Shown here: in pieces, positions 1,317 to 27,452 of the stretch
Layout: each line of letters starts with the position of its first letter
Numbering within the stretch: position 1 is the stretch's first letter
Translations under genes and position numbers: made by a program
IMG/VR virus record: IMGVR_UViG_3300031758_000297
Span: 1 to 33,712 of that record
Length of the DNA stretch: 33,712 nt
Direction: 5' to 3' (one strand)
From: a virus
Notes under the pieces: model-generated
The model's input: the letters and a program-made list of their open reading frames with translations, nothing else
Told to the model about the DNA's origin: nothing
Database searches by the model: none

Positions 1317-4300
1317 TTGATTTAAACGAGCGTTTGGGTTTTAGCGAACGAATAACAAGGCTCGGTAAAAATCTTGGTGGAGCAGTTCTATCCCCTGCTA
1401 AACTTGTGTGGGACGTTGCTACAGCTCCTCTTAATGATGCCGAAGAGTTTAATGGTATTTCTAATACTTTAAAAACATCTGTTGGCAATTTTGTTAAATC
1501 TGTTGGTCGCCCAATTGGTAATTTACTGTCAGACATTGATGCTATAAATAGAACCTTTATTCGCGAACCTTTAGGTACAGCTTCTTTAGCTATCTGGGAA
1601 ATGCGTAATAATGATGTTGATTTTAGCGCAGCTTGGGAAAAGGCTTGGGAAGCAAGAAACGAAGTCTCACTTGGTCAATCACTTGCTGCTAACATTTTTA
1701 GTAATACCTTTACTCGTAGCGCTTTTGTTGATGAATCAAAAGGTGCTAACCTTTTTAATGAATTTGATATTTTTAACAAAGAAGAACGCGACAAAGTTTT
1801 TAAGCAATCAGCATTTGGTCGTATTGCTTCTGGTAGTTTTGATTTTACTGCACAACTTTTTGGTGACGTAACCCTTGTCGGTGGTAAAGTTGCTAAAGGT
1901 GTTCGTTTAGGCGAAGCAGGAATTAGTTCTCTTAAAAGATTTAAAACTCCAGAAGAATTACAAGTAGCAGTTTTTAGAGAAATTGATTTAGCTAAAGAAG
2001 CACAAGTTGCTTTACGTGATGGTGTTGAAGGTGTAGTTAATAAATACTCAACTCCTATTAAAAATTATCGTGATAATGGTATAGGATATGCATTATCAAC
2101 AGATTTTGTTAAATCATCAGATGATCCAGGAACTCTTGGATATTTACTGGGTACAGCCAAAACAGATGATGAAGTAGCGTTTACTATGCGCGCTGCTCTT
2201 GGTGATAAAACAGCACTTACAGAATTACAAAAATTACGTCCTTCTAACGCTGCAGCTATGAATAAAATGTTTGGTAATCTTAGCGAAGCTGATAAAAACG
2301 TAATAGCTCCTTTATTTGATCCACAAACTGGTAGAATATTAGATATTAACGAAAATCCAAAAGCTTTATCAGAAGCAGGATTTGAATATGATGATCTTTA
2401 CCAAAACAATGATTTCTTTAAAAAGTTTGTTGACACTTTTGAATCCCCATCTCAAAAAGGCGTTGGCACAACTGACAAAATGGTTACACGTACTTTTGGT
2501 ACGTCAGAGCGTTATAAAAGATTTGAAGATTTTATAGCCAAAGGTAGAGTAACTAAACTTCTTGGTAATCCAAAACCCGGTTCTTCTACAGTAGAATTTT
2601 TTCAACCAACCCGTTGGAATCGCGCATACGCGCGCGTAACTTGGGCTGCAGGTGAGAGACCAGCATACATTGCTAACATAAATAGCCCTGATTCATATCA
2701 AGAAATACTTGCATCAGTTAATCGTGCTCGTAAAGTTATTGGTAATCAAAAAGTTGATGCCGCAGGTAAAATGATTTATGAAGGCTTTAGTGCAGATGAT
2801 GCAAGTAGAATAATTAAAGAATATTCTGCTGCAACAACACCTGAACAACGTTCTATTGTTATTTTAAAACTTGAAGAAGAAGTTGTAAACAAAGTAGCAC
2901 AAAAACATGGAATATCTTCAGAGCGTGCTAAAGAAATTTTTGATGGTAATACTCGCGCTAAACAATCAGCTTTAGCATCTTTTAAAGAACGTGGTTATGG
3001 TTTAGATAAAAACGGAGACCTTATCAAGGTTCCTATATATGAATCACAAACAGCAAACCATATGCCTATTATGGATTTTGATGTTCTTGATAGAACAATT
3101 CAAAACAATTTATCTGTTCTTAAAGGTCCTTTGACTCTTAAGGATAGCGTTGTTGATCTTGCTGATGTTATGCAAGATTTGTTTAAAGTCGGTGTTTTGC
3201 TTCGTCTTGGTTACACCACACGTAACGCTGTTGATTCACAACTTCGTATTATGGCTGCTTATGGCCCAATGATTGCTTTAAAGAACATACCTAAAGGTAT
3301 AGGTAATTTCATTACTAACGCCTCAACTGTCCCTGGACGTTTAGTTGATAATATTAAAGTTTGGCGAGGTAAGGAAACAGTATCTTCTTATAGAAGTAGA
3401 ATTGATGTTGAAGCTAGACAACTTGGTAAACAAATTGGTGAAATTGAATCTAATATCAAAGCACTAGATGACAAAATTGCTAAAGTTGAAGCAGGTCCAG
3501 TAATCCCAGAGTTTCAAGCTGAAGGATACACTGTTGATGAATCACTTATTATTAAATTTGGTAATGATCAATCTGTTCAAAAAGTAATTGATAAACAAAA
3601 TGAAATATTTGTTAATAACCCTAGATTTTTAAAAGATGTTGATAAAGAATTTTATGATACTGTAGAATATCCAGTTTCTGATGAAATGAATGAAATCTTA
3701 TCATACACCAGAAGTAAAGCTCAAGAAGGTGTACTTAAGAAAAAGGGTTTGTTTCCATTAAAGGTTATTCTTGATGGATTAGAAGGCAGAGGACCACTTG
3801 GGCAAGTTGGTGGACCAGAATACATTGAAGCAATTATTAAACGTGGTCGTGCAGACTATGTAGATAAAGTTGATGATTTTGGAATTAATACCCAAGGTGT
3901 TGTTCAAGCAGAATTAAGTCCTGGTGGTTTTGGTAAAGGCGAATGGGAACAAATATCAATTACTGATGGTAGAAGTAAAACTCGCTACGTTAAAGTTGAT
4001 TGGTTTCCAAGCACTGCAAAAAAGAATGAATTTATTGAAGAAGCTAAAGAAAGATTTTATCGCGAATCCTACACTCCTGATGAATTAAGAGCAAGCCTTA
4101 AAGCTCAAGAAGAACAACACGCTGCTAAGTATTTACAAAACTGGGATCCTGATACTTCATTGTATTATGGTGAAAAACAAAACCTTACAACAGAACTTGA
4201 AAATCTTAGATTAAAATACAATAGTATTGTTGATGATATTGCAAAGATTGATGCACCAATCACAAAGAAAACTATTGGTCAAGAAGACATTATTATTCCA

Positions 4301-25845: not shown

Positions 25846-25873
25846 AGGTACATTGATTTTTTACTGTATTTAC

Positions 25874-25944
25874 TACTCGGAACCGCCCAAAGCGGTTCCT
25901 CGTTAACGGGTCGCTCGCACATACTCACCGGCTCGCTCCGAGTA
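25874..25944 (+). other. Nested inverted repeats, possible structured RNA or origin element
   Basis: TACTCGGA (25874-25881) is the perfect inverted repeat of TCCGAGTA (25937-25944). Inside lies a perfect 8-bp hairpin, GGAACCGC (25879-25886) with GCGGTTCC (25892-25899) and a CCAAA loop. The two stems share GGA at 25879-25881, so they either compete or stack with a shortened outer stem. The enclosed 25900-25936 is GC-richer than its surroundings and contains two CGCTCG-like copies. No long T-run follows, so it is not a simple terminator. Confidence 0.5.
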
Positions 25945-25965
25945 TAATCTTAATAAAATTATAAT
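25943..25965 (+). promoter_or_regulatory. Possible -10 boxes upstream of the replication genes
   Basis: Two TATAAT hexamers, at 25943-25948 and 25960-25965, lie in an AT-rich stretch between the strong terminator and the first replication gene. No good TTGACA-type -35 box was found 16-18 bases upstream of either, so the call is tentative. Any promoter for the replication run would have to be in about this place. Confidence 0.35.
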
Positions 25966-25972
25966 AGCAAAC

Positions 25973-25991
25973 GACACGCTTTTGGCGTGTC
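25973..25991 (+). other. Hairpin near the first replication gene
   Basis: GACACGC (25973-25979) pairs with GCGTGTC (25985-25991) with loop TTTTG. The same GACACGC word begins the inner hairpin at 25741. It covers a possible GTG start at 25987, which makes that start unlikely, and would lie in the 5' leader of a transcript begun at the TATAAT boxes. Confidence 0.5.
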
Positions 25992-26028
25992 TTCAAACGA
26001 ATTACAAACTTGTGATATTGTGACTGGT

Positions 26029-26208
26029 ATGGAAACACAAATTGGACACAGAAGTTTCAGCTCTTTCACATCTTGGATGAGATGTGGTAAAGCTTGGGAA
26101 CTTGAAAGAAAGATACAAGCACCACAATCACCTGCTTGGTATTTTGTTGGTGGTTCTGCTTTTCACGAAGCAGTAGAAAAATACTTGCGAGACAATGAAA
26201 CACATTGA
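26029..26208 (+). CDS. PD-(D/E)XK nuclease (RecB/Cas4-like), N-terminal part of a split gene
   Basis: From ATG 26029 (an in-frame GTG at 25987 lies in a hairpin) the 59 residues METQIGHRSFSSFTSWMRCGKAW... to DNETH contain only the first part of an AddB/Cas4-type exonuclease. The H/E motif GSAFHEAVE supplies His46 and Glu50, and the Cys19 (MRCG) is placed like the first Fe-S ligand. The metal-binding Asp and D-x-K are missing here but present in the same frame at 26398-27081. Neither candidate start has a clear ribosome site. The 3' end overlaps the inserted zinc-ribbon gene by 14 bases. It could be a working half-enzyme or a broken gene. Confidence 0.65.
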   Translation: METQIGHRSFSSFTSWMRCGKAWELERKIQAPQSPAWYFVGGSAFHEAVEKYLRDNETH

Positions 26209-26401
26209 TGAACTGCAGCCAACCGGCCCACAGTTCAATCTCAGAGGTATACCCACGCATGTTTGTTTATGTGGATCAAAAGTCTGGGATGTTAAATGTA
26301 TGTTTGAAGAAAACGAAATCTCAATGTATTTTCTGGATATGCACTGTGCGTCATGTGGTAGTCCAGCAACTGCACCGACTCCAGAATTGGATTGTGAATG
26401 A
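26195..26401 (+). CDS. Small zinc-ribbon protein inside the split nuclease gene (68 aa)
   Basis: ATG 26195 opens MKHIDELQPTGPQFNLRGIP, followed by CxC (C24, C26) and CxxC (C51, C54), four likely zinc ligands. MYFLDMHCASCGSPATAPTP follows. From memory, small proteins with this GPQFNLRGIP/CxCGS/CASCGS pattern occur as free genes in actinophages, function unknown. The frame differs from the nuclease (+1). Its start lies in the N-terminal nuclease part, and its stop overlaps the ATG of the C-terminal part (ATGA), so all three are coupled. It seems to be a complete gene inserted into another gene. Confidence 0.7.
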   Translation: MKHIDELQPTGPQFNLRGIPTHVCLCGSKVWDVKCMFEENEISMYFLDMHCASCGSPATAPTPELDCE

Positions 26402-27081
26402 CTAAACAAATAGCAGAGAAGTATTGGCAAGAAACATTTCAAAAACTTATTGATGCCGAAGTTGTTAAAACAGATACCATTCCCTCAGAGTGGCGTGCTG
26501 GTGGTCGTGCAACTAAGGCATATCCTAATAAAGAAAATGACATCTGGTGGTCTGACAATGGACCAAAGATGGTTGATAATTTTATTCAATGGTGGCACAA
26601 TTCTAAATGGTCTATCTATTATGGTAAAAGCAACACACCACATATTGAAGCCGAATACAATGTAAAGTTTGGTAACGTACCAGTTAAAGCATTTGTTGAT
26701 TTAATTGCTGTAACACCAGATGGTGAACTTGTTGTAGTTGATTACAAAGCTGGTGCTTACATGCCGGACTACAATATGCAACTTGGTTTATACGCTTGCT
26801 GTATGGAAATAACAGAAGGCATAAGACCAAACAAAGGATTCTTCTATAATGCTCGGCAGGGTATCATGGAAGATGCAGGTGACTTGTCACGTTGGACAAT
26901 ACCGGTGTTTACCGAATTGTTTAGACAATTTGAGAAAGCACTTGAGCTAGAAATTTTTTTGCCAAATATTGGTATGACTTGTAAGTCATGTTCAGTGGCA
27001 AAATACTGCTATGCTTCTGGTGGGGAGTTAGCAGATAAGTATGACCCACTTGCATCTATAGATCAAGGAGAAACAAAATGA
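26398..27081 (+). CDS. PD-(D/E)XK nuclease (RecB/Cas4-like), C-terminal part (227 aa)
   Basis: It carries the remaining catalytic motifs of the nuclease: Asp101 (AFVDLIAV), Asp115-Tyr116-Lys117 (VVDYKAG) and Gln128/Tyr132 (MQLGLYA). C195-x2-C198-x5-C204 near the end matches the last three ligands of the Cas4/AddB-type Fe-S cluster. WRAGGRATKAYPNKE near the start is typical of actinophage members. The H/E motif and the first Cys lie on the separate 26029-26208 polypeptide in the same frame. Related enzymes digest DNA ends in recombination or replication. ATG overlaps the zinc-ribbon stop; AAGGAG near its end serves the next gene. Confidence 0.75.
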   Translation: MTKQIAEKYWQETFQKLIDAEVVKTDTIPSEWRAGGRATKAYPNKENDIWWSDNGPKMVDNFIQWWHNSKWSIYYGKSNTPHIEAEYNVKFGNVPVKAFVDLIAVTPDGELVVVDYKAGAYMPDYNMQLGLYACCMEITEGIRPNKGFFYNARQGIMEDAGDLSRWTIPVFTELFRQFEKALELEIFLPNIGMTCKSCSVAKYCYASGGELADKYDPLASIDQGETK

Positions 27082-27452
27082 GTGCAGACACACCAGGAGT
27101 GAAGACGCAACTTAACTTCAAAACCTCACAAGGTACATTAGTTAACGTTTATCTTTATTCATATGACGAAGATGAAATCAGAACAGCATTAGGAGCAATC
27201 GCTAATGTTACACCTGATATTAACGCAGTTGAAACACTATACAACGCACAAGGTGCTTTGAGAGAAGCACTTAACGCTACACCTATTGAACAACCAAGAA
27301 TGCAATCAACATCAAATGATGGTGCAAAGGCTTGTAAACACGGTGGAATGACATTCCGTACTGGTCAAAGTGCTAAGGGACCTTGGAAAGGTTACTTTTG
27401 TCCTTCTCCAAAGGGCACCGTAGATCAATGCGAACCTCAATTTATCCGTTAA
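27078..27452 (+). CDS. Putative ssDNA-binding or zinc-binding replication accessory protein (124 aa)
   Basis: Residues 1-35 form strands (KTQLNFKTSQGTLVNVYLYSYD), residues 35-70 a helix pair (IRTALGAIANVTPD, ALREALNATPI). The C-terminal 40 residues have C86, H88, C108 and C118 in CKHGGMTFRTG and YFCPSPKG-DQCEP, a likely zinc site. The gene overlaps the nuclease stop (ATGA) and has a strong AAGGAG ribosome site at 27065-27070. In actinophages, proteins of this plan sit beside the Cas4-like nuclease and have been called SSB-like; that is recollection, and the OB fold is not evident to me. Confidence 0.5.
   Translation: MSADTPGVKTQLNFKTSQGTLVNVYLYSYDEDEIRTALGAIANVTPDINAVETLYNAQGALREALNATPIEQPRMQSTSNDGAKACKHGGMTFRTGQSAKGPWKGYFCPSPKGTVDQCEPQFIR

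Follow-up and report, generated by a model that had tools for sequence, protein, structure and literature searches.

Two phage genes that probably encode the subunits of a split Cas4-like nuclease, with an optional zinc-ribbon-like gene at their junction

Several phage enzymes are known to be encoded by genes-in-pieces, for example NrdA of Aeh1, the large subunit of the T4 topoisomerase and the DNA polymerase gp43A/43B of Aeromonas phage 25 (PMC2988022). In the Cas4 nucleases, the metal ligands are His62, Asp99 and Glu113, and one N-terminal and three C-terminal cysteines bind an Fe-S cluster (PMC4176176, PMC3466216), while in DUF3799 there is a precedent for Zn rather than Fe-S on the four cysteines (PMC3466216). 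Single-gene Cas4-like (pfam12705) exonucleases are found in actinophages, such as gp71 of Hookmount and gp75 of Ruotula in mycobacteriophages and gp36 of Propionibacterium phage Moyashi, and a Mycobacterium/Propionibacterium phage clade has been described (PMC5704561). Here we describe a locus in a stretch of viral DNA of 33,712 nucleotides (IMG/VR record IMGVR_UViG_3300031758_000297; hereafter the window) where two genes, N and C, flank a small gene, Z. We consider it likely, with good confidence, that N and C encode the subunits of a heterodimeric Cas4/AddB-like (pfam12705) PD-(D/E)XK DNA nuclease that derives from a split ancestral gene, and that Z is dispensable for it.

The coordinates of the three genes and the 14-nt and ATGA overlaps between them, as given in an earlier note on this DNA, were exact on re-reading (Table 1), and it was confirmed that the H/E motif and one cysteine are on the 59-aa ORF and the other motifs on the 227-aa ORF. 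The N sequence carries GGSAFHEAVE in addition to C19, and its stop codon is directly followed by a second TGA. C carries D101, D115-Y-K117, Q128...Y132 and C195-x2-C198-x5-C204. The codons of N and C are separated by six in-frame stops, and the ribosome-binding sites are weak at all three starts in the window. N and C are in the same frame in the window, as the earlier note said, but this does not hold as a rule: in the relatives with no insert C is at +1 (32/32), and the shared frame is an accident of the insert length. The translational coupling, which had been taken as an argument against decay, is present but is weak evidence alone; the following gene (27078) shows identical coupling to C, so coupling is the norm in this operon and no proof of function.

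Table 1. Features of the nuclease locus, numbered from the first letter of the window
Feature	Position	Strand	Remarks
N gene	26029..26208	+	ATG 26029, TGA 26206-26208; 59 aa; first helices of the predicted nuclease
N residue C19	26083-26085	+	N-terminal cluster Cys (putative)
N residue H46	26164-26166	+	GGxxxH motif
N residue E50	26176-26178	+	
N/Z overlap	26195..26208	+	14 nt, ATGAAACACATTGA; place of the C start in no-insert relatives
Z gene	26195..26401	+	ATG 26195, TGA 26399-26401; 68 aa; CxC...CxxC zinc-ribbon-like; optional gene at the junction
Z/C overlap	26398..26401	+	ATGA start-stop
C gene	26398..27081	+	ATG 26398, TGA 27079-27081; 227 aa; remainder of the predicted nuclease
Next gene, L5 gp49-like	27078..27452	+	Phage_gp49 2.5e-8; coupled to C via ATGA, same operon

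The module around the nuclease includes a DnaB-like gene (27482) and a RusA-like resolvase gene (28336), a context that suggests that the nuclease would act in recombination or DNA end processing. Upstream, between the structural and replication modules, positions 25860-26020 of the window hold GC-rich inverted repeats (AACCGC...GCGGTT, GACACGC-TTTT-GGCGTGTC), which are well conserved in three relatives (L004, L005 and L007), have no Rfam match and are possibly a promoter or a regulatory element before N. Inside the gp49-like gene, DNA identity to L005 and L007 falls to ~70% at 27300-27360, with flanks at 85% or above, and this suggests another recombination or fast-evolving patch.

At the level of sequence profiles, N and C were confirmed as complementary parts of one PD-(D/E)XK/Cas4-like (pfam12705) domain. 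N matched phrog_69 (exonuclease; 6.9e-12), phrog_1870 (2.3e-7) and, weakly, positions 3-50 of PDDEXK_1; the matches of C were to phrog_1870 (4e-37), PDDEXK_1 (8.6e-10, positions 83-246) and Cas_Cas4 (6.6e-5). Against a PDDEXK_1 cut-off of 22 bits, C of the window alone scored 39.4 bits, versus 56.7 bits for N+C of the nearest relative, L005, over positions 3-246 of 247. When N was added to C the phrog_1870 score rose from 129 to 158 bits. A phmmer search of the PDB with C alone gave nothing useful; a profile search of the PDB matched AdnA/B and Cas4-family chains.

Structure prediction is consistent with this division. C alone was modelled with pLDDT 84 and pTM 0.77 and was a poor match to Cas4-family structures (best TMq 0.44; rmsd to CtACE1 9.4 Å). 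AlphaFold was also run on the N-linker-C read-through of the window as a single chain, with an alignment that held no natural single-gene rows, and gave pLDDT ~88 for N, ~36 for the disordered linker and ~87 for C (pTM 0.74). With N present, the Foldseek TMt rose from 0.34-0.35 to 0.59 (best chain) for MaACE1 and from 0.28-0.29 to 0.46 for CtACE1, the rmsd to Cas4 8d3q fell from 12.7 to 5.4 Å, and matches at E<=0.001 increased from 8 to 17; against SSO0001 the N+C model had a TMt of 0.42-0.43 at 5.1 Å. The model, of one read-through chain and not of two chains, supports docking of N on C. Partial function of C without N is possible, because C alone gives a fairly confident model. In N+C we thus find what characterizes the Cas4 family: a whole-domain profile match, the catalytic residues, four cluster cysteines and fold similarity, the last with moderate scores.

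Relatives were gathered from IMG/VR, with C, N and Z as queries, and from phage records. Both halves were present in 171 loci, which represent 116 distinct N..C regions, 109 of them split and seven single-gene. The earlier note had proposed searching for unsplit homologues and for other phages with the same insertion, and both were found. The single-gene regions are all distant homologues (L088, L182, L183, mycobacteriophages Hookmount and Ruotula and two Cutibacterium/Propionibacterium phages); the undivided form is present in mycobacteriophages and Pahexavirus, and the two polypeptides correspond to one ancestral domain. The same N-Z-C arrangement occurs in four other contigs from different metagenomes (L001-L004). 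Among the split regions, N and C overlap directly in 32, Z only lies between them in 22, Z with other sequence in 54 and another ORF in one (L065). The nearest relative of the window, L005, has no insert and a C that is 93% identical, and the split persists among relatives with C identity as low as ~33%. It is also found in LanE43AprF5 (OX376641; L101; PMC10202952), a cultured phage of Planktophila, which are abundant freshwater bacteria, with N at 2766-2942, C at 2926-3534, a 17-nt overlap and no insert; for C, the sister record OX376640 yielded the same match. In scans of bacterial genomes no relative was found, hence no link to a host or a prophage.

In the 32 regions with no insert, C has its own start codon within N, at 8, 14, 17 or 23 nt from the end of that gene, as in the junction AATGAGTAA with its 8-nt overlap. 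The window differs by a clean insertion of ~200 nt, with flanks continuous in L005 and L007. Across the split regions N and C may overlap or lie up to about 650 nt apart, in every frame relation, and ribosome bypassing was rejected on these grounds. An RNA element or intron was likewise rejected as the insert: there was no Rfam match, and the no-insert relatives are still split, so splicing is no explanation. Further small ORFs are present at the junction in several lineages, mostly with overlapping starts and stops, and the commonest of these begins MGRKHAKIISRDAF. A small ORF beginning MGRKHAKIISRDAFMQSFVEAEV recurs between Z and C in the group that has Z with other sequence (L034 2319-2519, L055 1613-1813, L036 859-1047 and others) and had no significant family match.

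Both halves are under purifying selection, with dN/dS of 0.016-0.145 for N and 0.034-0.197 for C, and are not decaying. In N, no change at C19, G41, G42, H46 or E50 was seen in any of 110 distinct sequences, and E84, D101, D115, K117, Q128 and Y132 of C are kept in 109/109 readable sequences; the loss of catalytic residues for which the relatives were to be checked was not seen. C195, C198 and C204 are kept in 107-108/110, and the others are sequences cut off by a contig end, or L048. In L048 (2806-3348) the C frame stops early and the three C-terminal cysteines are lost, which is either a sequencing error or a broken copy. The claim that the active-site residues and the cysteine ligands are divided between two polypeptides is therefore supported by motifs kept in 107-110 of 110 sequences.

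The split looks older than the inserts. In a tree of C, which was a quick tree with long branches and an uncertain root, the window groups with the no-insert L005 and the insert state changes at least five times. A single origin of the split, with all split rows held together, was not rejected (AU p 0.49), and a single origin of the insert, with all insert rows held together, was (p 6e-54). On these sequence comparisons, the N|C split is ancient and has been conserved, and is not the recent event that the earlier note had offered as an alternative; inserts have been gained or lost several times, with Z and other small genes arriving at the junction and leaving it again.

Z itself was described earlier as a zinc ribbon, and this holds for two cysteine knuckles, C24xC26 and C51xxC54, invariant in 12 relatives; the first is CxC and not CxxC. 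Searches of Pfam and PHROG gave no significant match for Z, and the zinc-ribbon family is assigned by pattern only. Relatives of Z with 57-62% identity are present in five loci (L096-L100) where neither N nor C was matched, and Z is thus also an independent phage gene.

Could the insertion of Z have split a nuclease gene that was intact before, with the product of Z now bridging the halves, as the earlier note suggested? Z is positioned right between the two halves, shows coupling to each of them, accompanies the junction in 76/109 distinct split regions and is under purifying selection (dN/dS 0.04-0.06). However, 32 distinct regions are split with no insert, the nearest kin (L005) and LanE43AprF5 included, so Z did not split the gene, and the insert-bearing loci are not one clade. 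Z is missing from the junction in L005-L008 and other no-insert relatives; it was not detectable anywhere in five no-insert records of 38-41 kb, the cultured phage has it ~5 kb from the nuclease, and in L065 the junction holds a different gene. Between the window and L003, DNA identity is 73-90% in Z and mostly 90-100% on both sides, and dS is 1.09 in Z versus 0.20 in N and 0.11 in C, a divergence that fits exchange of Z as a cassette. Both the splitting by Z and the bridge are thus disfavoured; we regard this explanation as very unlikely and already largely refuted, and the most fitting view of Z is that of an optional passenger in the operon, selected in its own right, rather than of a bridge. 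The overlap of N with a C in the +1 frame in every no-insert region would also be expected if programmed +1 ribosomal frameshifting fused N to C in those phages, the insert-bearing phages being derived and truly two-chain. Yet 32/32 have a start codon in the C frame, at a distance of 8-23 nt from the end of N; in six regions (L039, L072, L074, L076, L082, L083) the C frame opens exactly at this codon, and in L024, L045, L068, L076, L082 and L180 the codon follows a strong ribosome-binding site. The junctions differ (AATGAGTAA, GATGCTTAA, AACGATTGA) and share no conserved slippery site, such a shift is unusable in the 77 insert-bearing regions, and the constant +1 is explained by one inherited frame. 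Frameshifting is therefore unlikely.

Recent disruption, in the form of a pseudogene nuclease or a chimeric contig, might be suspected from the six stops between N and C and from the size of N, which at 59 aa would not be called a nuclease alone. It is extremely improbable given that independent assemblies (L001-L004) have the same arrangement, which disfavours a chimera in particular, and that the ligands are retained, dN/dS is well below 1 for both halves and the split is found down to ~33% C identity; the earlier view that this is not simple decay is upheld. Alternatively, C alone may be a working nuclease and N a small protein in its own right, regulatory or DNA-binding, in which the old motif is kept for another reason. 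C has the Asp, Asp-x-Lys, Gln/Tyr and three of the cysteines and models well alone, and cysteine mutants of Pcal_0546 stayed active (PMC4176176). Against this, the Cys, the GGxxxH motif and the E that N keeps in 110/110 are exactly those of the single-gene family, the Cas4 fold match of C is poor without N, the H80A mutant of SSO1391 is inactive (PMC4176176), H80 corresponding to H46 on our reading of the motif, and single cysteine mutants of Sso0001 were insoluble (PMC3466216). We consider a C-only nuclease quite improbable.

It seems most likely, then, that N and C form the two-subunit nuclease proposed above. A break after the GGxxxH helix would have separated the ancestral single gene into two parts, probably in one event, in the ancestor of a large group of phages, the cultured freshwater Planktophila phage among them. 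From then on N and C would have existed as two cistrons, translationally coupled and either overlapping or adjacent, and their chains would assemble after translation. N would give the His metal ligand (H46) and the first cluster cysteine (C19); the Asp, the Asp-x-Lys, the Gln/Tyr and the remaining three cysteines would come from C, so that the metal site and the four-cysteine cluster would each be complete only with both chains. By motif, the putative equivalents of the Cas4 ligands are H46 and C19 on N and D101, D115, K117, C195, C198 and C204 on C, and the four cysteines could, by analogy with DUF3799, bind Zn instead of Fe-S. The junction would tolerate whole small coupled genes, Z being one of these and not required. 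With middling confidence, we further suggest a conserved class of phage nucleases that have the metal site and the Fe-S (or Zn) cluster across two chains, a ~60-residue obligatory activator and a junction that is a landing site for exchangeable small genes.

If true, this would be a naturally split enzyme of an unusual kind, in which unlike chains share a cofactor site: a small nuclease domain stably split through its active site across a large phage group, and testable in a cultured phage. In annotation, N is easily missed or labelled hypothetical. The locus also indicates that gene junctions in phage operons can turn into insertion sites with no loss of function. No description of this split nuclease was found in the limited set of literature searched.

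Among the described systems, the actinophage exonucleases resemble N+C: they share the domain, the motifs and the cysteine pattern and lie near DnaB, in Moyashi also near a Holliday-junction resolvase, but they are one polypeptide whereas the nuclease here is encoded by two genes. Cas4 (SSO0001, Pcal_0546) and the AddB and AdnA domains share the RecB-like His-Asp-Asp/Glu-Lys-Gln/Tyr site and the pattern of one N-terminal and three C-terminal cysteines, although they are single-chain domains and distant in sequence (about 11-21% in structural matches), and their CRISPR adaptation or helicase-linked roles are not implied for N and C. The closest solved structures by Foldseek are of the Cas4 family ACE1 (9iab, 9iac), also a single chain, and associated with Argonaute according to the PDB title. 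The genes-in-pieces enzymes likewise consist of two polypeptides that reassemble, as the read-through model suggests for N and C. In gp43A/43B the split may have been there before a gene entered it, as at the N/C junction (PMC2988022). The inserts in the genes-in-pieces are homing endonucleases, whereas the occupants of the N/C junction are small genes with no endonuclease profile matches, and 32 regions have no occupant; unlike in those cases, the two halves overlap directly in many relatives.
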